Assembly: GCA_021199475.1 (NCBI GenBank) | Contig: JAJQHZ010000117.1 | Span: 1 to 53,108 of the forward strand | Length of the DNA stretch: 53,108 bases | Reading direction: 5' to 3' | Source of the DNA: Lachnospiraceae bacterium | GTDB taxonomy: Bacteria > Bacillota > Clostridia > Lachnospirales > Lachnospiraceae | Notes under the pieces: generated by a model | Told to the model about the DNA's origin: nothing | Databases searched by the model: none | What the model saw: the letters and a program-made list of their open reading frames with translations, nothing else | Made by a program: the position numbers and the translations under genes | Shown here: positions 28,491-50,734 of the stretch, one piece after another | Numbering within the stretch: position 1 is the first letter of the stretch | Layout of the letters: every line of letters begins with the position of its first letter

Positions 28491-29753
28491 TCAGAACCGC
28501 CCCGCGCTCAGCCACTCGTCCACAAAATCATGCAGCGTCGCAACGGTGTCTCCGAATTCGCCTTCGTATTTCTCCAGATGCTTCGCGGGGGTAAACCGGT
28601 GGGTGGCTCCCTCAACGAACGCGATGGTCTTGTCCCTGCTCGCGGCCATGTCGTAGATGGTCTCGGATGCAAGGAATTCCCATCCGGCCGTCATTCCCAT
28701 GACCAGAGTCGGTGCCTTTACATGAGCCATATTTCCCGGCGGGCAGTTATAGGTGGAGTCCCACTCCACGCCCCACAGGTGATCCTCGTCAAAGCCATAT
28801 TCCGCAGAGGTCCGCACCGCATAGGAATTCAGGTACGTCTTTACCGAAAGGAACCGTGCGCCTTCCCAGAAGGAGTCGGTAAACGATACCGGATTTTCCG
28901 GTCCCCGGAGGCTGTGAATGATCTCCTCTGTCCGGGTGCCGTCCGGGTGGAGAAGCAGATGCGCACGTTTTGTGCGCGACATCAGCCGCGGATCCTGCGC
29001 GTAAAGCTTGTTGTTAAAAAATCCCTGCGCGCTTCCCGGTATAATCAGCGGCTCATCGTCCGTATAGTTCCCCTCACCGGCCTCGATCTTCATCAGGCGG
29101 GCCAGGGCATATTCTAATATGTAAATGTTTCGCGTGCTCTGGGCCTTCTGAAAATTCCGGATAAAATCATGAGAATAGGAGGAGCCTGCAGGGTCAAAGC
29201 CATTTGCCGGGTTGAAGAGGTTCAGGTCCTCGTTGATGAGCATTCCGCCATGCTCGTCCTCCACCGCCGGATCCAGGCTCAGAAGCTGCATCACCGCATT
29301 GCCCCAGTTGGAGTCCAACAGCATGACACCGTCCGCGGGCGGCAGCTCCTCCTCACTGGGATAGGGGAAAATTTTTTCCGGTCCCTGGAATACCTGCGGA
29401 CCGTTTTCCGCCACGGCCTGATATGCCGACATCAGAGTTCCGCCGCCGCTGTGCCCCATCAGGACAATTTTTTCCACCTGCGGAAGAGCGCGCAGATACT
29501 CCACCGCCGCTTTCACACTTCGCGTTTTGTCTGTCTGACTGAATATGATTCCTTCTTTGTTCATCACGTTCGCGTTCAGGACGGTATATCCCCGCTTGGC
29601 CAGCTCCGGACCGGTCACCCAGGTCAGATAATCCTCATCCGAATGCATGACCAGAACGGCAATTCTCTGCTTTTCATTTTTCTCTGCCGGCTCATATAAT
29701 ACCCCAGGAGAACGTTTTGCCACTTCCACGAACGTTGTCTTAAACTCTCCCAT
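28491..29753 (-). CDS. Alpha/beta hydrolase of the C-C hydrolase cluster
   Basis: 420 residues, cytoplasmic. Fold marks: RIAVLVMHSDEDYL, the nucleophile elbow GHSGGG (S102), DGVMLLDSNWGNAVMQLLSL with a candidate acid, and FVEGATHRF with the likely catalytic His near 385. The region DEPLIIPGSAQGFFNNKLYA to GARFLSVKTYLNSYAVR is a family-specific cap. It is the last gene of the long leftward cluster and has a paralogue (49466-50734) in the second block. Possible roles are ester or C-C bond cleavage acting before or after the neighbouring phloretin-hydrolase-like enzymes; the true substrate is unknown. Confidence 0.8.
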   Translation of the reverse strand: MGEFKTTFVEVAKRSPGVLYEPAEKNEKQRIAVLVMHSDEDYLTWVTGPELAKRGYTVLNANVMNKEGIIFSQTDKTRSVKAAVEYLRALPQVEKIVLMGHSGGGTLMSAYQAVAENGPQVFQGPEKIFPYPSEEELPPADGVMLLDSNWGNAVMQLLSLDPAVEDEHGGMLINEDLNLFNPANGFDPAGSSYSHDFIRNFQKAQSTRNIYILEYALARLMKIEAGEGNYTDDEPLIIPGSAQGFFNNKLYAQDPRLMSRTKRAHLLLHPDGTRTEEIIHSLRGPENPVSFTDSFWEGARFLSVKTYLNSYAVRTSAEYGFDEDHLWGVEWDSTYNCPPGNMAHVKAPTLVMGMTAGWEFLASETIYDMAASRDKTIAFVEGATHRFTPAKHLEKYEGEFGDTVATLHDFVDEWLSAGRF

Positions 29754-29819
29754 CTTACTTTCCCCCGTTTTAGGAACTGTCGAATGCTATTTCCTGTCGT
29801 CACTGGTTCCGAATGCTCA

Positions 29820-30683
29820 TCAGTCCTCATCCATCGGCAGGCCGCTGTAGGCCTCGTACAGATCCGGGAGGACATTGTACAGATGCTGCCGCTCGATGGT
29901 GTTGTGCGTCAGAACATTTTTCAGGTAGGTGTTATCCACCGGTGTACTCTCATCGCGGATGATCCTGCCATCCTTCGCGTAAAAGCCCATCCACTCACAG
30001 TTGATGCTCTCTCTGCCGCCAAGCGGGCACGGACGGCTGAAACGCAGCACCAGATGATGCCCCGGAGCGCCCTCGAATTCTTCCCAGCAAGCGTCCGGCC
30101 GGCAGTCCGCGTCGATCAGCTTCTGATAACGCTCCTCGGAAAGCCCGTAGTCGCGCAGGTCAATGTTGTGAGACACCGCCGGGATTCCCTTGCTCGGGTC
30201 GCCGCCCGCACCCAGATCCAGCGTCTCCAGAGACCACACGCCATCCTTATCGTCCACGCCGTTTACAAACCGATGATCCCAGTGATCCAGCGGATTCCAG
30301 ATTTTATAGCGCAGGCTTCCCTGTCCTTCCTTCATGCTTTTCGAATGCTGGTTGTACCATTTTCCGTACCAGCGTCTCCATTTGCCCTGCCAGGTCACCG
30401 GCGATACGGAATACTCGATGTAAAATCCATAGCCTCCCGGCATCATGGTATATCCATAGCAGACCTTCGGATATCCGGTCACCTGCAGATGATCCAGCCA
30501 GTGTTCAATCGGAATCGCGTCCTCCACCGCAATCGGTCCCGCGTCCAGAATCTGCTGCTGGACGGGGCTCGGCGGATAGAGCTTGTAATCGGTATAAAAA
30601 CGGGAAGACGGCATCGCCTTTTCTTCCTCTGTCAGCTCCGGTACCTTATAATAAGGCATACCGTCGTCAATGATCAGGCCCAT
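29820..30683 (-). CDS. DAPG/phloretin hydrolase-like C-C hydrolase (copy 1)
   Basis: 287 residues from ATG 30683 (AAAGGAGACAGAGGAAT upstream). It resembles the PhlG family, zinc enzymes that cut the bond between an acyl group and a phenolic ring (2,4-diacetylphloroglucinol hydrolase; phloretin hydrolase of Eubacterium ramulus). PhlG binds zinc with two His and two Glu. Here H260-x3-E264 (HNTIERQHLYNVLPDLY) fits the last pair, and WDH (H137) and ETLDLG (E153) are candidates for the others. The shared family frame includes LRYKIWNPLDHWDHRFVNG and RFSRPCPLGG. It is about 290 residues like its paralogue at 31731-32606. Five phased 11-bp repeats lie just upstream. Confidence 0.8.
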   Translation of the reverse strand: MGLIIDDGMPYYKVPELTEEEKAMPSSRFYTDYKLYPPSPVQQQILDAGPIAVEDAIPIEHWLDHLQVTGYPKVCYGYTMMPGGYGFYIEYSVSPVTWQGKWRRWYGKWYNQHSKSMKEGQGSLRYKIWNPLDHWDHRFVNGVDDKDGVWSLETLDLGAGGDPSKGIPAVSHNIDLRDYGLSEERYQKLIDADCRPDACWEEFEGAPGHHLVLRFSRPCPLGGRESINCEWMGFYAKDGRIIRDESTPVDNTYLKNVLTHNTIERQHLYNVLPDLYEAYSGLPMDED

Positions 30684-30704
30684 ATTCCTCTGTCTCCTTT
30701 CTCG

Positions 30705-30757
30705 TATCCATTTGTTATCCATTTAGTATCCATTTCGTATCTATGTATGATCCATTT
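30705..30757. repeat. Five 11-bp phased repeats before hydrolase copy 1
   Basis: TATCCATTT or close variants start at 30705, 30716, 30727, 30738 (degenerate) and 30749, exactly 11 bp apart. They fill the gap between the SDR stop and the ribosome-binding site of the hydrolase. Confidence 0.85.
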
Positions 30758-30778
30758 ATCTGATTCACAATCGATTGC

Positions 30779-31582
30779 TTACCCAACAATCAGTCCGCCA
30801 TTGACATCAATCCGCGCACCATTCACGAAGCTTGCCTCTTCGCTCGCCAGGAAGGTAAACGCACCGACAACGTCCTGCGGAACCATCATGCGGCCCACCG
30901 GAATTTGTGAGAGCATCTTTGCACGCTCTTCATCGCTAAGCATCGTCTCCTCCGGCACATCCTCCTCGCAATGGCCGATCAGAATACAGTTTGAGGTAAT
31001 TCCTTTTGGTCCCAGTTCCTTTGCCATCTCATAAGTCAGCGCCTCAAGACCCGCACGGGCAGCAGCGAAGGATGGATCAAGAAAATATCCGCCGTTTCTC
31101 GCATCCCATGTCGTAATGTTGATGATACGCGGCGCCTTGCTCTCCAGCAGATATGGCATTGCATTTTTCGCATTCACAAACGCGGATTCCACGACCTCCA
31201 TGGAGTGGCGCCAGATGGTTTTGTCTGTATGCTCAAAATCATAGCGGATATGGCCTCCTTTGGCATTTACAATCACATCCAGGCTGCCAAAATGTTCATA
31301 AACCAGGCGCATGATATCACTCATATGCTCATGCGTTTCATAAATTTCCGGCGCAGCAGCCATATTCTCTTCCCATTTCGCTTTCGGATTCTGCGCAAGT
31401 CCGATCACGTGATCGCGATACTTTGGATTAATTTTTTCTGCAATCGCCTTCTGCGCTTTTGTATGCAGCCCGCTCAGCATCGCTACGTTCATACCTGCTT
31501 CCAGAGCCGCGTTTACGATCGCCGAACCATTGTTTCCGGCGCCGCCGGTGATTGCCATGGTTCTTCCTTTTAATGTAAACAT
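30779..31582 (-). CDS. SDR-family protein lacking the YxxxK catalytic pair
   Basis: 267 residues of the classical short-chain dehydrogenase size. The cofactor loop is TGGAGNNGSAI; NAKGG takes the place of the usual NNAG, and INVNGG-like DVNGGLIVG ends the protein. The active-site block reads INITTWDARNGGYFLDPSFA then AARAGLEALTYEMAKELGPK: where Y-x3-K is expected there is F-x3-R, so both catalytic Tyr and Lys are replaced. It lies between the two C-C hydrolases in the same direction. It may bind a nicotinamide cofactor or substrate without classical proton relay, or catalyse a different step. Confidence 0.82.
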   Translation of the reverse strand: MFTLKGRTMAITGGAGNNGSAIVNAALEAGMNVAMLSGLHTKAQKAIAEKINPKYRDHVIGLAQNPKAKWEENMAAAPEIYETHEHMSDIMRLVYEHFGSLDVIVNAKGGHIRYDFEHTDKTIWRHSMEVVESAFVNAKNAMPYLLESKAPRIINITTWDARNGGYFLDPSFAAARAGLEALTYEMAKELGPKGITSNCILIGHCEEDVPEETMLSDEERAKMLSQIPVGRMMVPQDVVGAFTFLASEEASFVNGARIDVNGGLIVG

Positions 31583-31730
31583 ATCCTTATCTCCATCCTT
31601 TCTACTGTTTTCCAGGCCTGTCTCTCAAGATTCTGTTCCACAATGAACTCTTTTTATCTGGCACAGCACTTCACACTTGCAGCGAAGGTCATATGATAAC
31701 ACAGCTTGTAACCTCTGTTGAAAGACGGCA

Positions 31731-32606
31731 TCAGTCTGCATCCATCGGCTGGTCATGGTACTCTGCGTACAGATCCGGCAGGAAGGTGTACAGGTGCTCC
31801 CATTCGATTAGCGTGTGAATAACCACTTTCTTTAAATAAGCCTCATCCACCTTCGTGCTGTAGTCCCGGACAAGCTTGCCGTTGACCGGTCTCCAGCCGA
31901 TCCACTCGCGGCTCCTGGTCTCAATGCCGCCGGTCGGGCACGGACGGGAGTATGCCAGGCAGAGATGGGTCCCCGGCTCGTCAAAGGTCTCATAGGAGCC
32001 TTTTCCGGTCAGCTGACAGCCCGCATCCTTAAGCTCCTGCAGCCGCTCATCGGTCAGGCCGAAATCCTTCAGGTCAAACTGATGGCGGATGGTGTCATAC
32101 ATGCGGTCGCCCGCGCCCAGATCCAGACTCTCGGTCGTGTGAATGCCGTCCGAGCCGTCCTGCCAGTTTACATAATAATGGTCGAAGTGATCTGCGTAGT
32201 TCCAGATTTTATACCGCAGATTGCCGTGGCCCGGCACCATGCTCTTCGATTTCAGGTTCCTCCAGTTGCGGTACCACCGCTCCATCTCCGAAGAAATGTG
32301 AGGCGGACGCACACGGTAGGTCGCCACATAGCCGGAGCCGTCCTCGAACATACAGTAGCCCAGCTCTACTTTATCATAGCCATACGGCTTGAGCAAATCC
32401 ATGAAATTTTCCGGGCGGATGGCCTCTTCTACAGCCATCGGCTTCTGGATCACCTGCATCTCAACCGGCGACGGCATATGCAGCGGATAGTTGTAAAAAT
32501 ACTTTGCCAGCGGCATCTGCTCCTCCTCCGGGAACAGCTTCTGGCGGATTTTTACGATATTGTCGTCGTTTGTATCAATGATTTCTTTGTCTACTTCAAT
32601 AAACAT
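31731..32606 (-). CDS. DAPG/phloretin hydrolase-like C-C hydrolase (copy 2)
   Basis: 291 residues, paralogous to copy 1 across the whole length (LRYKIWNYADHFDHYYVNW, TTESLDLGAG, DLKDFGLTDERLQ, YSRPCPTGG, WIGWRPVNGKLVRDYSTKVD). Candidate zinc ligands: H143, E159 and the HxxxE pair H264/E268 (HTLIEWEHLYTFLPDLY). GGGAGAAAACG precedes the start. It is the first of the catabolic genes after the MATE gene. Two members in one operon suggest two substrates, two acyl positions, or a heteromer. The family assignment is from memory of PhlG-type motifs, the substrate is inference. Confidence 0.82.
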   Translation of the reverse strand: MFIEVDKEIIDTNDDNIVKIRQKLFPEEEQMPLAKYFYNYPLHMPSPVEMQVIQKPMAVEEAIRPENFMDLLKPYGYDKVELGYCMFEDGSGYVATYRVRPPHISSEMERWYRNWRNLKSKSMVPGHGNLRYKIWNYADHFDHYYVNWQDGSDGIHTTESLDLGAGDRMYDTIRHQFDLKDFGLTDERLQELKDAGCQLTGKGSYETFDEPGTHLCLAYSRPCPTGGIETRSREWIGWRPVNGKLVRDYSTKVDEAYLKKVVIHTLIEWEHLYTFLPDLYAEYHDQPMDAD

Positions 32607-32627
32607 CGTTTTCTCCCTTCTTGATAG

Positions 32628-32733
32628 CCAGTACTTCGTCTCCAGATTATCTCGCTATATGGAAGACGATGTACTGGATTTCCCCGGCCGGCAGGCAGGT
32701 ATCCGAACCAAAGCATCACTGCCTGACAGCCGG
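32628..32733. other. Two hairpins between the MATE gene and hydrolase copy 2
   Basis: CCAGTAC ... GTACTGG (32628-32677, with CGTCTTCCA-like inner pairing) and CCGGCAGGCAG ... CTGCCTgacaGCCGG (32687-32733). They lie inside the presumed operon and could be processing or stability elements. Confidence 0.5.
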
Positions 32734-32760
32734 TATTCCTTATCGTTCATAAAAACAGGG

Positions 32761-34167
32761 TCAATGGTGCCGATTGTTTGCCTTTACCTCAATCTTCCCT
32801 TCCTCCGCCAGCCGAATCGTCTTCAGTCCGTAGAAGAACAGAGGGATAATCACAATAAAGCTTAACAAGTCAGCCACCGCCTGCGTAGCGGCCACGCCTT
32901 CCACACCAAAGAGCCGCGGAAGGATAAGCAGTGCCGGATAGAAGCAATAGCCCTGCCGTGCAAAGTTTGCCAAAAGCGCCAGCGCCGCATTGCCGATACC
33001 GGCGAAGAACATATTTACCTGCGAGCTGAGCGAATGAGCAACCAGGCCGAAACACTGCAGCCTTACGCAGAGCATTCCGAGGCGGAGCACCTCCGCATCC
33101 GCTTCTGTGTTAAAGATCTTGATCAGCGGCCTTGCAAAGATAAAGATGATGATTCCCATCACAATTGAACCGCCGACGGCCATCGTACAGCCGATCGTAT
33201 AGCTTTTCTTTACGCGCTCCCAGACCTTCGCACCCCAGTTGAAGCCGACCACCGGCTGGTAGCCCTGCCCGAAGCCGAGGATAAACGCAAACGGGAATTC
33301 CATGATACGATTTGCTACCGAAATAGCAGCCAGAGAAGCGGTCGAATAGCTGCCCGCCACGCGGTTGATTGCTACGGAAGCAATGACCGTCAGAATCGAG
33401 CGGAAGAACGAGCTCGAGCCAATGGCTACCACTTCTTTTATATCATCCCACACCAGTTTAAACTTCCGGATTGAGATCTCCACAATCGTGGTCTTGCGGA
33501 TATACGGCATCAGCAAAATGATAAAGCTGATGGTTTTGGAAATGGCGGTCGCCATGGACGCACCGGCCACTCCAAGGTCAAACCCATAGATGAAAAGCGG
33601 ATCGAGGAAGCAGTTCAGAATACCGCCGAAGCCGATGCCGATCATTGAGTAGGTCGCACTGCCCTCACTTCGCAGACACATATTCAGGATAAAGCTGCCG
33701 ATCATAAACGGTGCCGCATAAAGTACATAGGTGCCGTACTGCATCGAATACGTCGCTCAGTCCTCCGTCGCGCCCAGCCAGTAGACCATATCACCGAGAA
33801 TCAGCTTGCCGACTACCATAAAAAGGATACCCAGTCCAAGACCGGTAAAAATGGAAGTAGACAACACCCGGTTCGCATGCTCATCATCCTTCGCGCCCAG
33901 AAGTCTGGCGATGTAGCTGCAGGCACCCGCGCCGATCAGGGAACCGATGACCGTGATCAGACGCTCCAGCGAGCTGTTCACGCCCACGGCCGCAGTCGCG
34001 TTCGTGCCCAGCGTGCTGACAAAATACGTATCTACCAGGTTATAAATCGTCGTAATCAGCTGAGCGGTAATGGTCGGCACTGCCATCCTCGGAAGCAGCG
34101 TCATGATATTCTCAGTCAGCATCATCTGCTTTTTGTTGTCTTTTGCATTGTTTGTTTCTTTTTTCAT
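32761..34167 (-). pseudogene. MATE-family exporter interrupted by an in-frame TGA
   Basis: ATG 34167 opens a MATE protein (LPRMAVPTITAQLITTIYNL, VDTYFVSTLGTNATAAVGVN, SLIGAGACSYIARLLGA). At 33759-33757 a TGA follows GATED, after which the same frame continues ATYSMQYGTYVLYAAPFMIG, NWGAKVWERVKKSYTIG and FGVEGVAATQAVADLLSFIV to the stop at 32761. Total length with the stop read through is about 468 residues, normal for MATE. No frameshift is needed, so one base change explains the break. It lies between an 81-residue gene and hydrolase copy 2, and would have exported a drug-like or phenolic compound. Without readthrough only the first four or so spans would be made. Confidence 0.85.
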
Positions 34168-34172
34168 AACTA

Positions 34173-34418
34173 TTATGCCTCGCTATCATTGATTTCCATT
34201 GCATACCATCGACTGCGTACCTTATCATAGGCTCCGATTCTCTCAGGAAATAAAACTCCGCCATACCGCATTTGTGCCCGCACAATTCCATGCGCTGTCT
34301 GGTCCATATGAATTTTCACCTTGCCGTCGATTTTTTCTGCCTCCGGTGAAGCGGCATTTATGATCCCCGGATCAAAAGGCCAGCGCTTTGATGCATATCC
34401 CTTTGTTTCCAGGTTCAT
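34173..34418 (-). CDS. 81-residue protein of unknown function
   Basis: It starts right after the stop of the membrane-protein gene (TAA-ATG) and ends 5 bp before the MATE start, so it is part of the operon. Sequence stretches: WPFDPGIINAASPEAEKIDG, KVKIHMDQTAHGIVRAQMRY and VLFPERIGAYDKVRSRWYAM; mostly beta-like, no signal peptide, no cysteine. I do not recognise a family. A small accessory or scaffold subunit is one guess. Tight spacing on both sides favours a real gene. Confidence 0.6.
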   Translation of the reverse strand: MNLETKGYASKRWPFDPGIINAASPEAEKIDGKVKIHMDQTAHGIVRAQMRYGGVLFPERIGAYDKVRSRWYAMEINDSEA

Positions 34419-35003
34419 TTACATCCGGATGAATTTCTTCGATCCGTCCTTTGCTGTCCGGTTCTCCTGCTTTTCAAACGGCAGTGCCCGGTAAAAAAAG
34501 GTGATCAGGAAGCAGCAGATTCCGGAGAGGAGGTACAGAAGCGGCACGACAATCATGCGGACGGAATACCCGTTCAGAACCATCAGCACGATGCACGAAA
34601 CCGCTGCCCCCAGCAGAAGAAGCGCATTCACAAGAGGTGCGACCCGCAGGATCGTATTCATCTGTCGAAAGCTCTGGTCCGTGTTCCGTTCCCCCGCCGC
34701 GGCAAAGCTGATAACGCCGAGCCACTGAAACAGGAACGCGGCCAGGGAGAGCCCGGAAAACAGAATCGGGAACGAACGGTAGTTCAGCTCGCAGTTCCAC
34801 AGAGCGGCTCCCGCAAAGGACGCGGTACCAAGCGCGCAGAGCAATACAAAGATTCGCTTGTAGCGCGCCAGCTCCTCCTTCGCCAGGCTGTAAACGTACC
34901 ACATGCCCACATAGGCATAGCGGACGCGAAAGCCGCGTTTGTTGTCACAGGGCTCCTCATATGCCATATAACCCTCTTCAAATGACTCCTGGAATGTTTT
35001 CAT
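34419..35003 (-). CDS. Four-span membrane protein of unknown function
   Basis: About 194 residues from ATG 35003 (GAAGGGATATCAGG upstream); the frame is open to 35171 without a better site. A hydrophilic N-terminus (FQESFEEGYMAYEEPCDNKR) is followed by four hydrophobic segments (IFVLLCALGTASFAGAALW, FSGLSLAAFLFQWLGVISFA, LVNALLLLGAAVSCIVLMVL, VPLLYLLSGICCFLITFFYR) and a basic tail. Not recognised. It lies between oppF and the 81-residue gene and is likely co-expressed with the importer. Confidence 0.7.
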   Translation of the reverse strand: MKTFQESFEEGYMAYEEPCDNKRGFRVRYAYVGMWYVYSLAKEELARYKRIFVLLCALGTASFAGAALWNCELNYRSFPILFSGLSLAAFLFQWLGVISFAAAGERNTDQSFRQMNTILRVAPLVNALLLLGAAVSCIVLMVLNGYSVRMIVVPLLYLLSGICCFLITFFYRALPFEKQENRTAKDGSKKFIRM

Positions 35004-35137
35004 CCTGATATCCCTTCTTATCTCATTGTCATTGCTTTTTTTCGATACTTTCATGCGCCGCATACCATGCAGGGATTCTTCTTTTCCCTTTCTTCTGACG
35101 GCCATGATTACGATCTTGTTTTTGCACACCCCATTGT

Positions 35138-36094
35138 TTACAGCTTGTTGATTTCCTTTACCTTGTTGCACACCACGAAATGTCCCGGCCGGGCCTCGCA
35201 GGTCTTCACCCCCTGCTTGCAGCTCTCATCCGCGTACGGGCAGCGGGAGGCGAACCGGCATCCCGGTCCCGGATTGATCGGGGATTTGATCTCGCCCTTC
35301 AGAACGATGCGCTCCTTGCGGTTATGAATGTCCGTCGTCGGTATTGCGGAAAGCAGCGCTTTGGTGTACGGATGCAGCGGATAGGCAAACAGCTCATTCC
35401 GGTCGCACATTTCCACCATCTGTCCCAGATACATGACGCAGATCTGGTTCGAAATATGCTTCACCACGGACATATCGTGCGTAATAAACAGGTAAGTCAG
35501 CCCCATATCCCGCTGCAGATCCATCAGCAGATTCAGAATCTGTGCCTGAATTGATACATCCAGCGCAGATACCGGCTCATCGCAGACAATGAACTTTGGG
35601 TTCAGTGCCAGCGCCCTGGCGATGCCGACTCTCTGGCGGCGGCCGCCGTCCAGCTCATGCGGGTAGGACATCCGCAGACGCTTCTCGATGCCGACGATGT
35701 CCATCAGCTCATGCGTCCGTTTTTTTATCTGTTCCTTATCAAAGCTGCCATCCAGCTTCAGCGGCTCCATGATAATGTCGGAAACCGTCTGGCGCGGGTC
35801 CAGCGAGGAGTACGGATCCTGAAAAATCATCTGTACATCCTTGCGGAACTGCTTCATATCTTTTTTATTCAGCTTCGTGACGTCCTTCCCGTCAAACAGG
35901 ATTTTTCCGCCCGTGCTCTCATTGAGATGGATCAGGGTTCTGCCCAGCGTGGATTTTCCACAGCCGGACTCACCGACCAGGCCTACCGTCTCGCCTTTTT
36001 CGATTTTGAGGGTAATTCCATCAACGGCATGAACCATTCCGGCGCCACTCTTAAAATATTTCTTTAAATCCTGTGTCTCCACTAATGCTGCCAT
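35138..36094 (-). CDS. oppF: Oligopeptide-type ABC transporter ATPase (OppF/DppF-like)
   Basis: 318 residues. Walker A GESGCGKST, Q-loop MIFQDPYSSLDPRQTV, Walker B KFIVCDEPVSALDVSIQAQI, switch THDMSVVKHI, and the C-terminal oligopeptide-type extension with CRFASRCPYADESC. The signature is LDGGRRQR instead of the usual LSGGQRQR, a notable but probably tolerated change. It is 3 bp from oppD. Works with oppABCD in import of peptides or other small molecules. Confidence 0.92.
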   Translation of the reverse strand: MAALVETQDLKKYFKSGAGMVHAVDGITLKIEKGETVGLVGESGCGKSTLGRTLIHLNESTGGKILFDGKDVTKLNKKDMKQFRKDVQMIFQDPYSSLDPRQTVSDIIMEPLKLDGSFDKEQIKKRTHELMDIVGIEKRLRMSYPHELDGGRRQRVGIARALALNPKFIVCDEPVSALDVSIQAQILNLLMDLQRDMGLTYLFITHDMSVVKHISNQICVMYLGQMVEMCDRNELFAYPLHPYTKALLSAIPTTDIHNRKERIVLKGEIKSPINPGPGCRFASRCPYADESCKQGVKTCEARPGHFVVCNKVKEINKL

Positions 36095-36097
36095 TGA

Positions 36098-37093
36098 TTA
36101 CACCTCCTCATTCGCTTTCCAGCAACGCACCAGATGTCCTTCGGTCATCTCAATCATCTGGTTGTCAAACTTTTTGCACCGCTCACATGCATGCGGGCAA
36201 CGCTCGAAGAAATCACAGTGGTCACGGACGACCGACGGATCCGGTGGAAGCCCCTCGATCGGGGAAAGCCGATCCACGTCCTTGTCCAGATCCGGAAGTG
36301 CGCCAAACAGACCGCAGGTATACGGGTGGGTCGGGTGATCATAAATGTCCTCCAGAGTGCCGCTTTCAATGATGCGGCCCGCATAAATCACAGCCACCTT
36401 GTCGCAGACCTCTGCCACCACACCCAGGTCATGCGTGATCAGAATCATCGCTGTTCCAAGCTTATTTCTCAGATCCCGGATCAGGTCCAGTACCTGCGCC
36501 TGGATCGTCACATCCAGCGCGGTCGTCGGCTCGTCCGCCAGCAGCATCTGCGGGGAACAGGCCAGCGCCAGCGCGATGACCACTCTCTGCTTCATGCCGC
36601 CGGAAAACTGATGCGGGTACTCGTCCGCGCGGTCCGCGCCGATGCCCACCATCTCCAGCATCTCAATCGCGCGCTGTCTCGCTTCTGCCTTCGAGCAGTT
36701 CTGGTGCATTTTATAGCCTTCCGCGATCTGCGACACAACCGTCTTTACCGGGTTCAAAGCCGTCATCGGATCCTGGAAAATCATGGAGATCGATTTGCCT
36801 CTTAATGCCTGCAGCTCCTTATCGTCCATGTCCAGAATTTCTTTTCCCTCGAACAGGATTTCTCCGTCGACACTCTCTACCGAATTTTCCGGCAGAATGC
36901 GCAGGATGGATTTTGCAATTGTCGTCTTTCCGGCTCCGGTCTCGCCTACCAGACCGAGCGTCTCTCCGGCATTCAGTTCCAGAGAAACGTCATTGACCGC
37001 ATGGATGATCGAACTGCCGGAATGATATTTTACGGTTAGATGTTTTAATTCAAAAAATTTTTTCGTCTCTGCCATCTCTTTCTCCCCCGTCAA
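36098..37093 (-). CDS. oppD: Oligopeptide-type ABC transporter ATPase (OppD/DppD-like)
   Basis: 331 residues; ATG 37093 or ATG 37078 (MAETKKFFELK) can start. Walker A GETGAGKTT, MIFQDPMTALNPVKTV, signature FSGGMKQRVVIALAL, MLLADEPTTALDVTIQAQVL, THDLGVVAEVCDK, and the C-terminal cysteines CDFFERCPHACERC expected for the subfamily. Overlaps the oppC stop by 4 bp, so translation is coupled. Confidence 0.93.
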   Translation of the reverse strand: MTGEKEMAETKKFFELKHLTVKYHSGSSIIHAVNDVSLELNAGETLGLVGETGAGKTTIAKSILRILPENSVESVDGEILFEGKEILDMDDKELQALRGKSISMIFQDPMTALNPVKTVVSQIAEGYKMHQNCSKAEARQRAIEMLEMVGIGADRADEYPHQFSGGMKQRVVIALALACSPQMLLADEPTTALDVTIQAQVLDLIRDLRNKLGTAMILITHDLGVVAEVCDKVAVIYAGRIIESGTLEDIYDHPTHPYTCGLFGALPDLDKDVDRLSPIEGLPPDPSVVRDHCDFFERCPHACERCKKFDNQMIEMTEGHLVRCWKANEEV

Positions 37094-38034
37094 TCTTTAA
37101 AGTTTGGATCCAGAGCATCCCGGAATGCGTCGCCAAGCATGTTGAAGCTCAATACGGTCAGCACGATGAAGAGGCCCGGAATGATTACCATGTACGGATA
37201 ATCACGGATGTAGTTACGGGTAGAGGCAAGCATCGCTCCCCACTCCGGCAGCGGCTCCTGCACGCCAAGTCCGAGGAAGCTTAAGGATGACGATGCCAGG
37301 CCATTTCGGCTGATGGTCATCGCGATTTCAACAATAATCGGGGAAATCGCATTTGGAACAATGTGCTGGCTGATAATTTTCCAGGTCGGACAGTTCACCG
37401 TCGTCGCCGATTCGATGTACTCCATACTGCGGATTCTCAGAATGTTCGCACGCATCAGACGGGCAAAGCCTGGAATCGAGGTAAGTCCGAGTGCAAGGAT
37501 ACATTTATCCACGCCTGTGCCAAATACCGCGCAGAATGCCATCGCAAGTACCAGAGACGGAAATGCCTGAAACAGATCCAGGAAACGCATAATGCAGGAA
37601 TCTACCACACCACCGAAATAACCGGCGATCGCACCCATTACAATTCCAATTACTGCGGAAAGCGCGGTCGAGAGAATACCGATGATCAATGTATATCTTG
37701 CTCCATACAAAACTCTGGAGAAAATGTCACGCCCCAGGTCATCGGTACCGAACCAGTGTTCCAGGGACGGCCAGGATTTCATCGCCACAAAATCGGTCGC
37801 CGAGTAAGAATATTTACAAACATAAGGGGATAATAATGACGCGATGACGATGGCGATAATAAATGTCATCCCGAACAGCGCGCCCTTGTTATGGGAAACG
37901 CTCGCCCACACATATTTCGCGGAACCCGGCTTAATGCTGGGGTCAATGTGATGATGATGCTTTCTCCCCTTTTTGCCATGCCCGTGGTGCCCGTCATGTC
38001 CGTCGTGATGTCTTTTTTTCAATTCGTCTGCCAT
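37090..38034 (-). CDS. oppC: Oligopeptide-type ABC permease (OppC-like) with His-rich N-terminus
   Basis: 314 residues. Six membrane spans with the family signature (AREYIESA-like RSMEYIESATTVNCPTWKII, HIVPNAISPIIVEIAMTISR) and GTDDLGRDIFSRVLYGARYT. The first ~30 residues (KKRHHDGHDGHHGHGKKGRK, then HHHH) contain about eleven His in a cytoplasmic tail, which is unusual for OppC and could bind zinc or nickel. The C-C hydrolases of the operon are expected to need zinc. Stop/start contacts with oppB and oppD are tight. Confidence 0.92.
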   Translation of the reverse strand: MADELKKRHHDGHDGHHGHGKKGRKHHHHIDPSIKPGSAKYVWASVSHNKGALFGMTFIIAIVIASLLSPYVCKYSYSATDFVAMKSWPSLEHWFGTDDLGRDIFSRVLYGARYTLIIGILSTALSAVIGIVMGAIAGYFGGVVDSCIMRFLDLFQAFPSLVLAMAFCAVFGTGVDKCILALGLTSIPGFARLMRANILRIRSMEYIESATTVNCPTWKIISQHIVPNAISPIIVEIAMTISRNGLASSSLSFLGLGVQEPLPEWGAMLASTRNYIRDYPYMVIIPGLFIVLTVLSFNMLGDAFRDALDPNFKD

Positions 38035-38991
38035 TTATTTCACCTTCTTCTTACTTGAGGAAACATACTGTGCTTTGATTCGCGGATCCGCGAACGCATA
38101 CAGCAGGTCTGTCAGCAACATAATCAGCGCAAAGGTAAACGCGATAAATACGATTCCGCCCGTGCAGGCATTGTAATCGCGGTTGTTGATGCTGTTTACC
38201 AGGTACTGTCCGATGCCGGGGATGGAGAACACCACCTCGATGATGGTCGCGCCGCCGAGCATGGAACCGAACCGCATGCCGATGACCGTCAGAATCGGAA
38301 TCAGCGCATTCGGAAGCGCGTGTCCGTAGATGACCGTTCGCTCCGGAAGTCCTTTCGAGCGCGCAGTCGTCACATAATCGGACTGAACGACCTCCAGCAT
38401 ACTCGCCCTCACCTGTCTGGTAAATCCGGCCAGACCACCGAGCGAGTTCGCGATCGTCGGCAAGATGAAATACCGGAAGGATTTCGCACCGGAGGATGGC
38501 AGCCACCCCAGCTGGAGCGAGAACAGCAGCACCAGCATCAGGGCCGTCCAGAAGCTCGGCATACAGTCAAAGAGCAGGGTGATAAACATTGAAATCCGGT
38601 CGCCTGCCGAGTTCGCATGTACCGCTGTGTAAATGCCCAGCGGCAGGCCTACCACAATGGTCAGCAAAATACTGTATATGGCGATTTGCGCCGTGTATGG
38701 GAATCGCTTCATCAGCTCCCACTTGATATCCGTTCCGTCCATCAGAGATTTTCCAAAATCAAATTTGGTGAAAATATTGACGATATATTCGCCCAGGCGT
38801 ACCAGAAACGGCCGGTCCAGACCCAGAGCCACTCGTTTCGCCTCAATTTCCGCCTCTGTATGTACGCCAGACCCAAGCGCGATCTGCGCTGGGTCACCCG
38901 GAACGAAGTTCATCAGAGTAAACATGATAATGCCGACCGCGATCAGCGTGGGGATCATTATCAATAATCGTTTTACCACATACTTTATCAT
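38035..38991 (-). CDS. oppB: Oligopeptide-type ABC permease (OppB-like)
   Basis: About 318 residues from ATG 38991 (AAGGAAAGGAAAAAGTTC upstream). Family marks: MIKYVVKRLLIMIPTLIAVG, MNFVPGDPA, GLDRPFLVRLGEYI, LLFDCMPSFWTALMLVLLFS, QVRASMLEVVQSDYVTTARS and GKGLPE-like KGLPERTVIYGHALPNALIP. Six membrane spans; forms the channel with OppC. The gap to oppA is 509 bp, so oppB-F may also have an internal start or be processed separately. Confidence 0.93.
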   Translation of the reverse strand: MIKYVVKRLLIMIPTLIAVGIIMFTLMNFVPGDPAQIALGSGVHTEAEIEAKRVALGLDRPFLVRLGEYIVNIFTKFDFGKSLMDGTDIKWELMKRFPYTAQIAIYSILLTIVVGLPLGIYTAVHANSAGDRISMFITLLFDCMPSFWTALMLVLLFSLQLGWLPSSGAKSFRYFILPTIANSLGGLAGFTRQVRASMLEVVQSDYVTTARSKGLPERTVIYGHALPNALIPILTVIGMRFGSMLGGATIIEVVFSIPGIGQYLVNSINNRDYNACTGGIVFIAFTFALIMLLTDLLYAFADPRIKAQYVSSSKKKVK

Positions 38992-39033
38992 GAACTTTTT
39001 CCTTTCCTTTTTTCTGACGTGCGGTACCTCCAC

Positions 39034-39500
39034 CGTTCGTCCGGCTCTTTCGTTTCCACCCGAAAAAGAAATTCGAGAATGTTCCTTTTCGGATAAAAGC
39101 GGTTCTGGAGATCAAAGTTTGCCCGAAAAAGACAGAATTACCGCGTATCCGTTCAAAAATGGCACCGCATCCACTTTCAGAAGCCGCTCCTGCGGATTCC
39201 GGCGCCCGGTTTTCGGTTCTCTGGCACCTGCCGCCGTTTTATCGGTCACAGGTAAGGAAAACCGCTGCGCATCTGATGCAGTGCCATCTTCTCCGTCCCT
39301 GCAGGTTACAGATCCTGCGGCCTGCCCTTCTGCAGGGATGTATGATTCACAATTCAATTAAGGCTTGTATCATTCCGGCCACTCCTGCCTGTATCCTCAC
39401 CCCGGCAGTCCCTATCGGAATACCATATGCATGACGCACACGCTCTTCCGATACGATCAGCGGGGTATCAGGCAGGCAGAGTGCCGGGAGTCATTTCCGT
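39034..39500. other. Region between oppA and oppB
   Basis: No gene is convincing; short frames in all directions have no ribosome-binding site. CTGCCTG-ATCC...CCCG at 39388-39404 and CGGGG-TATCAGGCAGGCAG at 39460-39480 form a long imperfect hairpin a few bases beyond the oppA stop, a likely processing or partial termination point. The rest holds AGGAGATCAAAG-like and GC-rich stretches without clear order. Confidence 0.4.
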
Positions 39501-41093
39501 TCAGCCTACGGAGGTGTAATCCTCTGTGAAGGTCATCGCGTTCGGTACCGGATTCAGATTCTGCAGGCAGATGTCAGTCAGGCCGGATGTCGTAACGATG
39601 GAACGAACCTCTGTGTATACGCCGATGATGTACGCCTGCTCGATGATATACTCATGGAACGCGTTCATATTCTCTTCACTTCTGTCAGCCATCGCCGCTG
39701 CGAGGAGCTCCTGAAGGGTCTCATCCTCTACGAAGCACTGGTTCGTCTCACCGCCGAACAGATCGTTCCAGTAGGTGGTCGTGAAATCGGAAATCGAGTT
39801 GGAATACTCAGAAATATCCCATGCAGTCGGGTCGCTCTGTACTGCCTGTCTTGCCGCACGATCCTGGCTGTCAATCGTCAGGTTGATGTTTGCCTCTGCC
39901 AGCATTGCCTGAAGAGCTACATACGGAGTCTGCGGAGCCTGGGAGGTATTCAGAAGGCTGACCTCAAGCGGGTTGCTCTCATCATAACCGGCTGCTGCAA
40001 GGTACTCTTTCGCAAGTTCCAGATCCTGCTCGAAATAAGACTCCTCATCCCATGCGTCTACATAGTCCGTTGCAAGGTTCGGGGCAACATCATGGCTCAG
40101 AACGACTTCGCCTGCGGAAAGGGACATGTTATAAGCGTCGAATGCATATGCAACACCGAGACGGACATTGACATCCGCGCACGGATTTCCTTCGCTGCAG
40201 TTAAAGATCAGATACTGCGTCATACCGTTCAGGTACTTGGTAATGTTGTAGTCTTCGTTTCCTTCAAAAAGGCTCACTTCGTCAGAGGAAACCTCTGCCA
40301 TATCTACTTCGCTGTTCTCCAGAGCGATCGTTCTGGAAGAAGCCTCTGTGATGCAGCGGATCTCAATCTCTTTTACATTCTGGAATTCCACATCCGACTT
40401 GTCCTCAGTCTTCCAGTAGTCATCCTTCGCCTCAAGTGTCACACCAGAGCCGGCTGTCATATCCGTTACAATGTAAGCGCCGGTCGTCGCCGGATTGGAG
40501 TTAATCTCATCCTCAGAAGCACTCTCATACCATGCTTCGCTGGCGATTGAGCAGGAGGTCAAAACGGCCTCGATCGCACCTTCTGAAGTATCTGAAAGCG
40601 TGATGGTCAATGTGTAGTCGCCGGTCACTTCTGAACCGCCATAGTACAGAGAAATCTCAGATACATACCCAAGCTCTGCCAGCTTGTCATAGCTGTAAAC
40701 CACGTCCGAAGCGGTGATCGCATTGCCCTGGCTGTCAACGATGTTGTCATAGATTTCAACATCATAGGTTGCATCATCAACCTTTGTCACGGACTTCGCC
40801 GCAACCATCTGCAGCTCATCGTTCTCCAGCATTGCGCCGATGAACGGGCGATAGCACAGATGCGCCCAGATCGTGTTCTCCGTCCAGTCACGGACTGAAG
40901 AATCATTGCCCCACGGACCAATCGTAAATGAGTCATCATCCACTGCGATGACTACCTTGTCCGCCTGGGTCTCCGCCTCTACCGGAACTGCAGAATCCAG
41001 CTGTACATCAGACTCCTCCGCGAACGCCGGCGTGCACATTCCGAGTGCCATCGCCGAGGTCATCAGTAACGCGATTAAAGTTTTTTTCTTCAT
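39501..41093 (-). CDS. oppA: Oligopeptide-type ABC transporter substrate-binding protein (OppA/DppA-like)
   Basis: About 530 residues from ATG 41093, preferred because GGAGG lies 9 bases upstream (it abuts the other ATG at 41102). The signal peptide KKKTLIALLMTSAMALGMCT ends at AFA-EESD; no proper lipobox. The mature part follows SBP family 5: WTENTIWAHLCYRPF, NAITASDVVYSYDKLAELGY, CSEGNPCADVNVRLGVAYAF, LELAKEYLAAAGYDESNPLE. The fold binds peptides but family members also carry glycosides, nickel chelates or other small molecules. The promoter carries the shared LysR-type element. Confidence 0.9.
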   Translation of the reverse strand: MKKKTLIALLMTSAMALGMCTPAFAEESDVQLDSAVPVEAETQADKVVIAVDDDSFTIGPWGNDSSVRDWTENTIWAHLCYRPFIGAMLENDELQMVAAKSVTKVDDATYDVEIYDNIVDSQGNAITASDVVYSYDKLAELGYVSEISLYYGGSEVTGDYTLTITLSDTSEGAIEAVLTSCSIASEAWYESASEDEINSNPATTGAYIVTDMTAGSGVTLEAKDDYWKTEDKSDVEFQNVKEIEIRCITEASSRTIALENSEVDMAEVSSDEVSLFEGNEDYNITKYLNGMTQYLIFNCSEGNPCADVNVRLGVAYAFDAYNMSLSAGEVVLSHDVAPNLATDYVDAWDEESYFEQDLELAKEYLAAAGYDESNPLEVSLLNTSQAPQTPYVALQAMLAEANINLTIDSQDRAARQAVQSDPTAWDISEYSNSISDFTTTYWNDLFGGETNQCFVEDETLQELLAAAMADRSEENMNAFHEYIIEQAYIIGVYTEVRSIVTTSGLTDICLQNLNPVPNAMTFTEDYTSVG

Positions 41094-41138
41094 CGTTTTC
41101 ATCCTCCATTTTTGGTTGGGTTTATATGTTGTGACTGT

Positions 41139-41195
41139 ATTGTACAAAATAACGGGATTCCAATCAATTCCGTTTCCATTTTCATGATTTCCAAA
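41139..41195 (-). promoter_or_regulatory. Shared regulon promoter A (oppA operon)
   Basis: Minus strand: TTTGGAAA (41195-41188), 17 bases, GAATTGATT (41170-41162, containing the -35 TTGATT), 17 bases, TACAAT (41144-41139). The same arrangement occurs at promoters B (48362-48418) and C (50800-50856). Within the first block TTGGAAAnnnnGA satisfies the LysR T-N11-A rule. Confidence 0.8.
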
Positions 41196-41258
41196 TTGTA
41201 AATTATACAAGGAAATGTTTTCTTTTATTGTTTTTTTGTCAATAATACACAAAACCAC

Positions 41259-41609
41259 AGGAAACCACTATTTGCATCCCTCATTCCACTCCCAGACATT
41301 GCAGAACACACACCCGGGCCTGCAATGGTTTTGAGCATACAAAAAACGGCTGTTTTCCCTGATTCTCACAGCCGTTCTTTCTTTCCTTTTGAAAAATGTG
41401 ACGAAAATGCCAGAATGATAGAATCGAAATTGGAAATTATGCGCATACAGGCGTAATCATGAGACCGAAAAAAGACAGACCGTGAAAAATCGATTCTTCA
41501 TGGTCTGCCAGGGGATTCCTTATAACTCCGGCCTTATGGCTCGTTGCTTTGCGGAGATCGGGGATCAAACATCACGATCGCTTTCCGGCCAAACGAAATA
41601 ACCGCCCGC
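41259..41609. other. Intergenic region between lysR1 and oppA
   Basis: No gene. AACGGCTGT ... ACAGCCGTT (41345-41376) with a TTTTTTG tract on the minus strand is the lysR1 terminator. CATTGCAG ... CTGCAATG (41297-41327) is a second hairpin. Confidence 0.5.
41345..41376 (-). terminator. Terminator behind lysR1
   Basis: Stem AACGGCTGT/ACAGCCGTT with TTTTTTGT following on the minus strand and TCTTTCTTT on the plus strand, so possibly bidirectional. It separates lysR1 from the oppA promoter. Confidence 0.75.
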
Positions 41610-42509
41610 TTACGCGCCGCCCTCGGTGTCAATCTTTTCAATCATAAAATGCAGGAAGTTGGTCGCCGCCGGGCAGGAAAGCTTTCTTCTATATAATAAG
41701 TAGATGTAGGAGCGCACGATTGGAAAAATATCCACCACCGCACAGGTATTCTGCGCCTCCGCGGGAATGTGAAGCCGGTTCAGCACAGCCACACCGCCTC
41801 CGTTGCGCACATACTGCACCATCGTTGAAGTAAACTGCGACTCCATCGCAATCTCCGGCGTAAAGCTCCTGCTCTCGCACAGCTCCTGAAACTTCTGCGT
41901 CTCCTCATGCGGAATGCTCGTGACGCTCGCGTGCAGGATAAAACGCTCCCCTTCCAGTTCTTCAAGCGTCACGCTCTTTTGCTTCGCAAATGGATGATCC
42001 AACGGCAGCACCACCGCCAGATGATCCGTCTTGTAAACCATTTTGTTAAAATCCTCATCCACCGCCTCATTCCCTCCCAGAAACGCAAAATCGCATTTTC
42101 GCGTCTTCAGCAGATTCAGCGGCTGGTAGGTCTCAATCACCTTCATGCTCCGGTCTTCATGAGAATTGGTAAACTCCGCAATCAAATCAATCAGCCCATA
42201 CTGCCCCAGCACCGGCGCATAGGCGATGGAAAACGTCTTTTTCCGGTCATTCGACAGATCCCGGAGCGCAGCGATCGCGTCCTGGCTCGTCCCAATCATC
42301 TGTTTCGCATAGGGGTACAGCGCTTTCCCGAATTCATTGGTTTTGATCGACCGAACGGAGCGGTCAAAGAGCGTTATCCCCAGCTCCGATTCCAGCTTCT
42401 GTATGTGTTTCGTCAGCGCTGACTGGGAAATATTCATTTCAAACGCCGTTTCCTGAAAGCTGTTTGTCTCCACAAGAGATACAAATTCTGATAAAATATT
42501 AATGTCCAA
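41610..42509 (-). CDS. LysR-family regulator 1
   Basis: 299 residues. Winged helix at 1-60 (FVSLVETNSFQETAFEMNIS, QSALTKHIQKLESELGITLF). The effector domain has FSIAYAPVLGQYGLIDLIAE, KVIETYQPLNLLKTRKCDFA and HLAVVLPLDHPFAKQKSVTL. It is clearly paralogous to the regulator at 48463-49362. It lies upstream of oppA in the same direction, separated by a terminator, and is the best candidate for the protein that binds the TTTGGAAA element at promoters A, B and C. The start follows CCAGGAGGGATGGAG. Confidence 0.92.
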   Translation of the reverse strand: MDINILSEFVSLVETNSFQETAFEMNISQSALTKHIQKLESELGITLFDRSVRSIKTNEFGKALYPYAKQMIGTSQDAIAALRDLSNDRKKTFSIAYAPVLGQYGLIDLIAEFTNSHEDRSMKVIETYQPLNLLKTRKCDFAFLGGNEAVDEDFNKMVYKTDHLAVVLPLDHPFAKQKSVTLEELEGERFILHASVTSIPHEETQKFQELCESRSFTPEIAMESQFTSTMVQYVRNGGGVAVLNRLHIPAEAQNTCAVVDIFPIVRSYIYLLYRRKLSCPAATNFLHFMIEKIDTEGGA

Positions 42510-48462: not shown

Positions 48463-49362
48463 TCAATTTGACTGATTGATCTGTTCGATCATATAATGTA
48501 GGAACTGCGCCTCTGATGTGAGAGACAGCTTCTGCGGATATACAAGGTAAATATAAGAATAAACATGCGGATACAGATCCACTACAACCACATCTGGCAC
48601 ATCTTTTGGAATGTGCATTCGGTTCAGGATGCCAATCCCCCTCCCGGCATTCACATAACGGACGATACTTGACGTATACTGTGATTCCGCAACAATATTC
48701 GGCGAAAAGCCTTTGCTGTCACATAGTTCTAAAAAGTGTCTGGTCTCATCATGCTTAAAATCAGTTTCACTTGAATGCAGGATAAATCTCTCCTTATATA
48801 ATTGTTCCAGGCAGACGCTCTCCCTGTCGGAAAGAGGATGGTCTTTTGGCAACACAACTGCCAGATTATCTCTTTTATAAATCATCTTGTTATAATTATT
48901 AAAATCTTTAAGATCCAGCTTACTTTCTGCTGCAAATGCAAAACCACATTTTTTCTGTCTCAAAAGCTCCGTTGGCTGATAGCTTTCAATCGTGACAGGG
49001 TTATACTCTGGATGCTTCTTCGCAAAAGATGTGATGATATCAATAATTCCGTACTGCCCCAGGACAGGGCTGTAAGCGATAACAAGCTCTGCTCTTTTTT
49101 GCTTTGAGAGGGAGTTCACCGTCTCAATCCCTTCCCGGTAAAGCCGTATAATATCCTTTGCATAGGGGTAAAATCCTTTGCTATATTCGTTTGTTTTCAC
49201 AACTCTTCCCGTGCGGTCAAACATAGACTGCTTCATCTCTTCTTCTAATTTGTGAATGTGTTTCGTCAATGTGGACTGAGACACGTTCATAGCTGCCGCT
49301 GTCTCCTGAAAGCTGCACGTCTCATAAAGTGAAACAAATTCCTCCAGCAAGCTGATGTCCAT
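48463..49362 (-). CDS. LysR-family regulator 2
   Basis: 299 residues, same length as regulator 1 and paralogous throughout (SFQETAAAMNVSQSTLTKHI, VIAYSPVLGQYGIIDIITSF, TIESYQPTELLRQKKCGFAF, LAVVLPKDHPL, RMHIPKDVPD). Codon use is more AT-rich than regulator 1, suggesting separate acquisition or divergence. It lies between the broken hydrolase and the 604-residue gene, both of which carry the shared promoter element. Either or both LysR proteins may bind it. Confidence 0.92.
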   Translation of the reverse strand: MDISLLEEFVSLYETCSFQETAAAMNVSQSTLTKHIHKLEEEMKQSMFDRTGRVVKTNEYSKGFYPYAKDIIRLYREGIETVNSLSKQKRAELVIAYSPVLGQYGIIDIITSFAKKHPEYNPVTIESYQPTELLRQKKCGFAFAAESKLDLKDFNNYNKMIYKRDNLAVVLPKDHPLSDRESVCLEQLYKERFILHSSETDFKHDETRHFLELCDSKGFSPNIVAESQYTSSIVRYVNAGRGIGILNRMHIPKDVPDVVVVDLYPHVYSYIYLVYPQKLSLTSEAQFLHYMIEQINQSN

Positions 49363-49465
49363 CTATATTACCCCCTATAAATCGCTCTGGCTTTCAGTTC
49401 CCATATATTTCCACCAGAGTAATTCCAAAAACGTTCCTGTCGAAAAAACGTCTATTCTCATCATT

Positions 49466-50734
49466 TTATAGAAATCTTCCACTCTCCCAAAGCCATTCAT
49501 CTATATAATCATACATTATCTTCAGCGATTCCCTGTCTGGACCTTTCGCACTTTCAAAACTCCCTGCCAGTGAATCGTTATTTGCCCTGCCTTCCACAAA
49601 CGCAACCGACTTATCACTGCTCGCACTCATAGTATAAATCAATTCTGATGCGAGGAGCTCACGATTTTCCGTCATTCCTACAATCAATGTCGGGACTCTT
49701 ACATATGCCACATTCCCAGGAACACAATTGTAGGTGGATTCCCATTCAATCCCCCATAGATGCGTCTCATCATAGCCATAATCTCTTTTCGTCCGAATCG
49801 CATAAGAATCCAGATATGTCATAACAGAAAGGAAACGGGCTCCCTTCCAGAACGAATGCGTATGTGATTCATTATTTTCCAGTTCGCGCCGGGAACAAAT
49901 AATCTCAATTGTCCGCCTGCCATTCACGTGCAGAAGAAGATACGGCTTCTCCGTTCGGGACAGCAATCGGACATCCTGAGTAAACAGCTTATTATTGCAG
50001 ATCCCCTGAGCCGCGCCCGGTATAATCAACGGCTCATCATCCCGGTAGTTTCCCTTTCCATTCTTTAAGAACAGACTGCGGTTCAATGCAAAGTCCAACA
50101 GATAATTGTTTCTGTCCGTCTGTGCTTTCTAAAACTTTTCTATAAATTCTTTTGAATAAGCAGAGCCTTCTTTTCGAAAACCATTCGCCGGGTTAAACAT
50201 ATTCAGATCTTCATTGATAATGATTCCGCTGTTTTCATCCTCCACTGCCGGATCCAGACTTAACAGCTGCATCACCGAGTTTCCCCAGTGAGTATTCAAA
50301 AAAAGCACCCCATCCGCGGGGGGCAGCTTCTCCTTTCCCGGATATGGAACAATCATATCCTCTGTCTGAAAAATGGAAGAGCCATTTTCAGCAATCGCCT
50401 GATATGCGGACATCAGGTTTCCTCCGCCGCTGTGTCCCAGCAAAACAATTTTCTCCACATATGAAAGACAGCGGAGAAATTCCACTGCGGCCTTTACGCA
50501 CAATATTTTCTCAGCCAGACTATAAATGATTCCTCCTTTGCTTCGTACGTTCGCGCAAAGTACCGTATAACCACGCCCGGCCAGTTCAGTTCCTCCAGGA
50601 AATGACAGGTAATCTTCATCTGAATGCATGATCAAAACTGCAATTCTCTGTCTTTCATTTTTTTCTGCAGGTTCATAGAGCGCTCCCGGAGTACGCTGTG
50701 CGAGATTCACAAATGATGTTTTAACTGACTCCAC
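49466..50734 (-). pseudogene. Paralogous alpha/beta hydrolase broken by one amber codon
   Basis: Start at GTG 50734 (AGGAGGTTGAAA upstream), paralogous to the hydrolase at 28491-29753. The N-terminal part has RIAVLIMHSDEDYLSF, the GHSGGG elbow, and LFLNTHWGNSVMQLLSLDPA. At 50131-50129 a TAG follows FIEKF; the intact paralogue has Gln in the corresponding place (RNFQKAQSTRN versus EKF-stop-KAQTDRN). The frame then continues KAQTDRNNYLLDFALNRSLF to the stop at 49466 without shift, so a CAG to TAG change would suffice. The C-terminal half contains the expected FVEGRANNDS region, where the catalytic His seems absent (GATHRF in the paralogue). Confidence 0.85.

Follow-up and report, generated by a model that had tools for sequence, protein, structure and literature searches.

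The question raised by one run of genes in a Lachnospiraceae bacterium (assembly GCA_021199475.1, contig JAJQHZ010000117.1) is which compound is handled by a system in which an oligopeptide-type (Opp) importer adjoins two hydrolases resembling PhlG and phloretin hydrolase. The window, i.e. the whole stretch of 53,108 nucleotides that was analysed, is a single contig of a 3.8 Mb genome that is 96.7% complete. Open reading frames (ORFs) and Pfam and NCBIfam profiles placed on its minus strand, from 42509 to 28491, genes for LysR, OppA, OppB, OppC, OppD, OppF, a small membrane-like protein, a MATE exporter, PhlG1, a short-chain dehydrogenase/reductase (SDR), PhlG2 and a large alpha/beta hydrolase (ABH) (Table 1). 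Apart from the small membrane-like gene, the original prediction had set these genes in one direction behind a LysR gene, and all of them were present. The cassette is real and recurrent and holds a distinct PhlG subfamily.

The first step towards an answer concerns the two hydrolases themselves, which are 45-46% identical to each other. The search with the PhlG-family profile PF18089 gave significant matches for both, above the curated cut-off of 22.7 (77.2 bits for PhlG1 and 26.3 bits for PhlG2), and the predicted model of PhlG1 showed the phloretin hydrolase/PhlG fold with structure matches to 5xe5 and 3hwp, in agreement with their earlier description as two PhlG/phloretin-hydrolase-like enzymes. 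PhlG1 reached 29.9 bits with the NCBIfam PhlG equivalog, for which the cut-off is 600, and no NCBIfam family was listed for PhlG2. In a tree calculated without the 5xe5, 3hwp and Eubacterium ramulus sequences and without an intermediate like the L050 protein described below (loci are numbered with L, genomes with G), 110 subfamily proteins were split from 22 canonical phloretin-hydrolase-type proteins with a support of 100 in the Shimodaira-Hasegawa-like approximate likelihood ratio test. The tree and the column counts comprised ORFs of 260-480 residues and left out both proteins of locus L084; the 22 canonical proteins derive from 21 of 22 loci, L144 having been removed by the length filter. 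Orthology to phloretin hydrolase or to 2,4-diacetylphloroglucinol hydrolase was ruled out by the tree, the equivalog score and the active-site columns. Three PhlG copies (L121, L122 and L063 18081-19034, the third PhlG gene of the L063 locus) formed a separate branch with support 100. No match to PhlG1 was obtained in plasmid records.

The active-site columns indicated a site that was partly kept and partly rebuilt. The metal site of PhlG is taken here to consist of two His and two Glu residues (H129, E160, H270 and E274; these numbers, like Y121 and Y229, are assumed ones whose letters agree with the 3hwp sequence). His140 and His264 were invariant in all 110 subfamily proteins and in all canonical proteins, and Glu268 was Glu in 109 of the 110 (one gap) and in 22/22 canonical proteins. 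Three ligand columns of the metal site expected by the original prediction were accordingly retained; the fourth (161) is Leu in 110/110 subfamily proteins versus Glu in 22/22 canonical ones. Two residues upstream of this column, Glu159 was found in 106 of the 110; in the PhlG1 model it ends strand 155-159, which comes after the strand starting at His140, and because of this position it may replace the lost ligand. Near-invariant residues were gained at His143 (110), Glu206 (110), His214 (110) and Glu234 (109), while canonical residues were lost at columns 116 (His, 22/22 canonical), 219 (His, 21/22) and 234 (Phe/Tyr, 22/22). Tyr132, which aligns with PhlG Tyr121, a residue whose role we take as assumed background, was kept in 109/110. 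A PF18089 protein of locus L050 (1406-2362), sharing about 30% identity with the canonical as well as with the window-type group, was included in the structure alignment and assigned to neither group. It has Leu161 and Glu159 and none of the four gained residues, so that it may be an intermediate and the changes of the two sets may have arisen stepwise.

The second step concerns the neighbourhood. To collect relatives, genome contigs were scanned with a profile from 17 aligned sequences, namely the two hydrolases and relatives; the best 80 of 99 confirmed stretches gave 76 distinct loci, which, with close relatives among them, are not independent. Homologues of OppB were found in 33 of these loci, OppC in 32, SDR in 31, ABH in 29 and MATE in 26, absences being partly due to contigs that stop near the gene; LysR homologues (at least 37% identity and at least 130 bits) occurred in 12. 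Two or more PhlG genes were present in 33/76 loci, a count that includes the PhlG2 of L084 added by hand. The joining of an importer to such hydrolases, to which the original prediction had drawn attention, recurred, with OppB or OppC in 34/76 loci, and two PhlG genes, SDR, ABH and Opp stood together in 14/76, in varying gene order. Canonical PF18089 genes from the same bacterial family, with their surroundings, supplied 22 control loci; at the same thresholds Opp permease, SDR, ABH and MATE were found in 0/22. A looser listing (>60 bits, E 1e-8) contained no OppA, OppB, OppC or ABH homologue in the 22 loci, and showed four distant OppF-like ATP-binding cassette (ABC) ATPases (31-36%), three MATE proteins (24-26%), four LysR proteins and one SDR (25%, 64 bits). 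Fisher tests of linkage against the controls gave 2e-5 to 4e-4, values that overstate the case because related species were counted separately. Linkage was strongest in the 33 loci with a PhlG1 at least 65% identical to that of the window (SDR 27, ABH 23, MATE 22, OppB 17) and was weak, except for Opp, in the other 43, where PhlG1 was below 65% or absent (SDR 4, ABH 6, MATE 4, OppB 16).

Named records among the hosts were Hungatella hathewayi DSM 13479, Pseudoflavonifractor sp. 60, Faecalicatena orotica and Frondihabitans sp. PhB188, together with metagenome-assembled genomes (MAGs) whose titles read Treponema and Propionibacteriaceae; gut compartments of roe deer, goat or sheep are named in 12 of the 76 record titles. 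The enzyme set was found in H. hathewayi DSM 13479 and in Frondihabitans sp. PhB188. In the latter, an actinobacterium (L084), the genes MFS_2, ABH, SDR, PhlG2 and PhlG1 are consecutive, with a PhlG2 that shares 59% identity with the PhlG2 and 47% with the PhlG1 of the window. An MFS_2 gene belongs to the cluster in Hungatella, Pseudoflavonifractor and Frondihabitans. F. orotica showed Opp and PhlG1, with no SDR or ABH within the fetched stretch. Since the enzyme set is constant, its order variable and its hosts scattered, horizontal transfer of the cassette is suggested, misbinned contigs being possible in single MAGs.

Of the accompanying enzymes, the SDR had been called atypical in the original prediction, and was so: at the YxxxK motif Tyr was found in 0/35 and Lys in 3/35 proteins, with Arg in 32/35 at the Lys column, even though the profile PF13561 was matched with 103.2 bits. 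The predicted ABH model was close to esterases, feruloyl esterases among them, and the ABH sequence had no close relative among solved structures (best E 0.0013, best stretch 76 residues). The importer run, with one family-5 binding protein, two permeases and two ATPases, is an Opp/Dpp-type set; the four subunits scored (OppA, OppB, OppC and OppD) were all under their NCBIfam cut-offs, OppA reaching 80.2 bits with its best model, Opp5A_nikA (cut-off 600). The genome holds nine SBP_bac_5 genes in 3.8 Mb (ten matches, two of which are one gene), and we estimate that a random SBP_bac_5 neighbour would be expected within 10 kb about 5% of the time.

We lean, by a modest degree, towards reading the locus as a regulated, probably horizontally shared catabolic cassette for the import and subsequent deacylation of a candidate compound, perhaps of plant origin, in which a carbonyl adjoins an enol- or phenol-type carbon. 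LysR would sense this compound, and the Opp-type ABC importer, or in some other hosts the MFS_2 transporter, would take it in. The SDR-fold protein would then prepare it in a hydride step that dispenses with the Tyr/Lys relay usual in SDRs. PhlG1 and PhlG2, with a metal on His140, His264, Glu268 and probably Glu159, would split the C-C bond between the carbonyl and the enol- or phenol-type carbon as PhlG does, the ABH would hydrolyse an ester or the freed acyl part, and the MATE protein, where intact, would export the residue; we infer the order of these steps. The class of chemistry is likely, and an acylphenol is one substrate candidate, not an established one. More tentatively, and with clearly less confidence, the metal site and proton-transfer residues of the subfamily (Glu to Leu161; Glu159, His143, Glu206, His214 and Glu234 gained) might have been rebuilt for a substrate outside the known PhlG enzymes; together with a redox-atypical SDR, a new ABH family and exchangeable importers, this would make up an undescribed pathway that has passed among gut and plant Clostridia, Spirochaetes and Actinobacteria.

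Several points weigh against the catabolic reading. The fourth ligand column has become Leu throughout the subfamily, and Glu159, the proposed substitute, is missing in 4/110 proteins. OppB and OppC were not found in the fetched flanks of 42/76 loci, and with only 4/43 SDR and 6/43 ABH among the more distant loci, not every relative sits in the cassette. A redox role of the SDR is not assured, since its catalytic Tyr and Lys are gone. The MATE gene named in the original prediction is present, but its frame is split by an in-frame TGA (33757-33759), so that the gene as assembled probably does not give a single protein; either a real lesion or an assembly error fits. A split MATE as a general feature was ruled out, as the relatives in L043, L045 and L049 are single unbroken ORFs of 456-468 residues. 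Activity, metal and substrate are predictions from sequence and model.

The original prediction had proposed an acylphenol-like substrate, a proposal that the tree, the remodelled site, the equivalog score and the gene content of the genome do not support. In this explanation, the best placed of the alternatives yet in our view unlikely, acylphenols or dihydrochalcones are taken up, PhlG1 and PhlG2 act by cleaving compounds of the phloretin or acylphloroglucinol type, and the phenol is exported. The PF18089 family, the fold, three of four metal-ligand columns and the conserved Tyr132 speak for it; the separation of the pair from the canonical proteins, the exchange of Glu for Leu, the loss of His at columns 116 and 219, the change of Phe/Tyr 234 to Glu and the new His143, Glu206 and His214 speak against it. 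A further test came from the families PF04199 and PF05853, which we take to be the Cyclase and BKACE families of known phloroglucinol breakdown; both are broad, and a match does not prove the pathway. The window genome had no match to either, and a link to known phloroglucinol breakdown was thereby ruled out for this genome, although export of the uncleaved phenol would still be compatible. Twenty-five genomes were tested, leaving out G012 (partial subfamily-like match) and G067, G264, G274 and G336 (canonical-type scores). BKACE was found in 13/16 and Cyclase in 12/16 genomes with canonical proteins, versus 2/9 (G092, G340) and 4/9 (G027, G092, G210, G340) of those with the subfamily. The Hungatella-like G092 has both, and the contrast across genomes is not absolute. 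Within the genus, six of the subfamily-bearing genomes were tested, and the counts were 0/6 for BKACE and 1/6 for Cyclase. On these figures canonical enzymes tend to accompany phloroglucinol use, whereas the subfamily in this genus does not.

Ranking next, and likewise unlikely, is a non-aromatic or glycoside-like compound: the SDR would convert a substrate resembling a sugar, cyclitol or lactone into a 1,3-dicarbonyl, which the PhlG pair would then cleave. Such a compound would suit the newly acquired His and Glu residues of the subfamily, and MFS_2, of a sugar-transporter family, adjoins PhlG1 or ABH in L064, L081 and L084, but transporter families guide poorly to substrate. The same applies to the SBP_bac_8/SBP_bac_1 proteins adjoining relatives in L128 and L132; two actinobacterial relatives adjoin binding proteins of the SBP_bac_8 type. 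Neighbour clusters, annotated from tested members and not member by member, included a 7-bladed lactonase type in 16 loci (tested in L109), a BD-FAE esterase type in 9 (tested in L104) and a ceramidase-like one in 11 (the tested L130 member exceeding the cut-off, those of L109 and L092 falling short of it); an ORF of L128, chosen separately, was ceramidase-like and likewise exceeded it. The lactonase and BD-FAE neighbours would favour a non-aromatic compound, but they sit in loci other than window-type cassettes. Judged by these predicted families, deacylation looks like a common theme among outlying relatives, and the PhlG relatives beside ceramidase-, BD-FAE-like or lactonase genes (L109 4264-7736, L092, L128 and L130) possibly form a second cassette type. 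In eight loci (L060, L061, L068, L069, L070, L076, L081 and L083) a gene cluster whose tested member in L068 matched Oxidored_nitro, i.e. nitrogenase-like, was observed in the same fetched stretches as PhlG, and in seven of these eight a NifH-like cluster as well.

Detoxification, in which the hydrolases and MATE remove a plant antimicrobial and a separate peptide importer lies alongside by coincidence, appears improbable. It would account for the 26 loci with MATE and for Hungatella L064, which has MATE and MFS_2 and no Opp gene in the fetched stretch, but OppB or OppC is kept beside the hydrolases in 34 loci, and in the window it is MATE that is interrupted while the other genes are open. 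A chance neighbourhood of unrelated metabolic genes is scarcely credible: Opp, MATE, SDR and LysR are each common families, but their linkage is kept across Clostridia, Treponema and Frondihabitans and was not seen in the 22 canonical controls, by which chance adjacency was ruled out.

Table 1. Genes of the cassette in the window, listed in the direction of the run.
Feature	Position	Strand	Basis
LysR-type regulator	41610..42509	-	PF00126 and PF03466
OppA, family 5 solute-binding protein, signal-like N-terminus	39501..41093	-	PF00496 (SBP_bac_5) 170.7 bits
OppB permease	38035..39033	-	NCBIfam Opp2B 305.9 bits, cut-off 350
OppC permease	37090..38034	-	NCBIfam Opp4C 292.7 bits, cut-off 350
OppD ATPase	36098..37093	-	NCBIfam OppD 351.8 bits, cut-off 575
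OppF ATPase	35138..36094	-	PF00005 (ABC_tran) and PF08352 (oligo_HPY)
Small protein with hydrophobic stretches, probably membrane	34419..35171	-	without Pfam match
MATE exporter gene	32761..34167	-	PF01554 on both halves; in-frame TGA
PhlG1, PhlG-family hydrolase, divergent subfamily	31731..32606	-	PF18089 77.2 bits, cut-off 22.7
SDR-fold protein without catalytic Tyr and Lys	30779..31582	-	PF13561 103.2 bits
PhlG2, second PhlG-family hydrolase	29820..30683	-	PF18089 26.3 bits, cut-off 22.7
ABH, large alpha/beta hydrolase, 420 residues	28491..29753	-	

Two starts in Table 1 were revised. The OppA ORF extends over 39501-41258, its probable start having been moved to 41093, and that of PhlG2 over 29820-30722, with a probable start at 30683 according to the ribosome-binding site and relatives. 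If these starts are used and OppB is taken to start at 38991, the intergenic gaps flanking OppA are about 510 bp each (up to 516), and those after OppB range from -34 to 251 bp. Promoter-like sites numbered 22 versus a shuffled mean of 13.8 (standard deviation 4.0), two standard deviations above, and terminator-like sites 15 versus 12.1 (3.1), near expectation; these counts gave no clear signal of a single transcript. Between OppF and MATE lie the membrane-like gene, with homologues in 15 loci including the window, and perhaps also an 81-codon ORF (34173-34418), which had a tblastn match, in two pieces, only in L089 among the 76 loci. Elsewhere in the window, positions 46510-48324 encode a protein of 604 residues whose N-terminus is signal-like and which has no Pfam match; homologues were found in 6/76 related loci, the L059 copy (73% identity) lying just upstream of OppA. 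A second copy of LysR and ABH was found at 48463..50770 on the minus strand. This LysR2 is 51.5% identical to the LysR of the cassette, and the ABH pieces (57% and 69% to ABH) contain an in-frame TAG and are altered around the invariant His; this copy duplicates part of the cassette and has decayed. It adjoins a DDE_3 transposase (51002-52234), which we take to be IS630-like.

Few PhlG-type C-C bond hydrolases have been characterised, and our literature search on PhlG family terms gave mostly Pseudomonas papers and false matches among the entries listed. The conserved group, with its rebuilt site and its linkage to an importer and two other enzymes, points towards a class of compounds broken down in the gut by a route that was not found in the literature searched. 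In flavonoid surveys, genes of this kind should be kept apart from phloretin hydrolases. In the comparison with phloretin hydrolase of the E. ramulus type (Mycobacterium abscessus 5xe5/5xey), identity to two canonical gut proteins was 24-27%, and the pair differs by its tree position, by Leu at the fourth ligand column and by its linkage to Opp, SDR and ABH, which the canonical loci lack at the same thresholds. PhlG (3hwp), the 2,4-diacetylphloroglucinol hydrolase, is set apart by the equivalog score of PhlG1, far below its cut-off, and by Tyr229, whose equivalent in the window subfamily is Glu234; the roles of the PhlG residues, Tyr229 included, are assumed here. The phloroglucinol degradation cluster of the anaerobe Clostridium scatologenes likewise combines degradative genes with a nearby SDR, regulator and transporter (PMC10470551). 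The window differs from it in that no BKACE or Cyclase member was found in the window genome and that the window SDR lacks the catalytic Tyr and Lys. OppABCDF oligopeptide/dipeptide importers have the same make-up as the window set, but OppA to OppD of the window fall below the NCBIfam cut-offs and the importer is recurrently linked to hydrolases.

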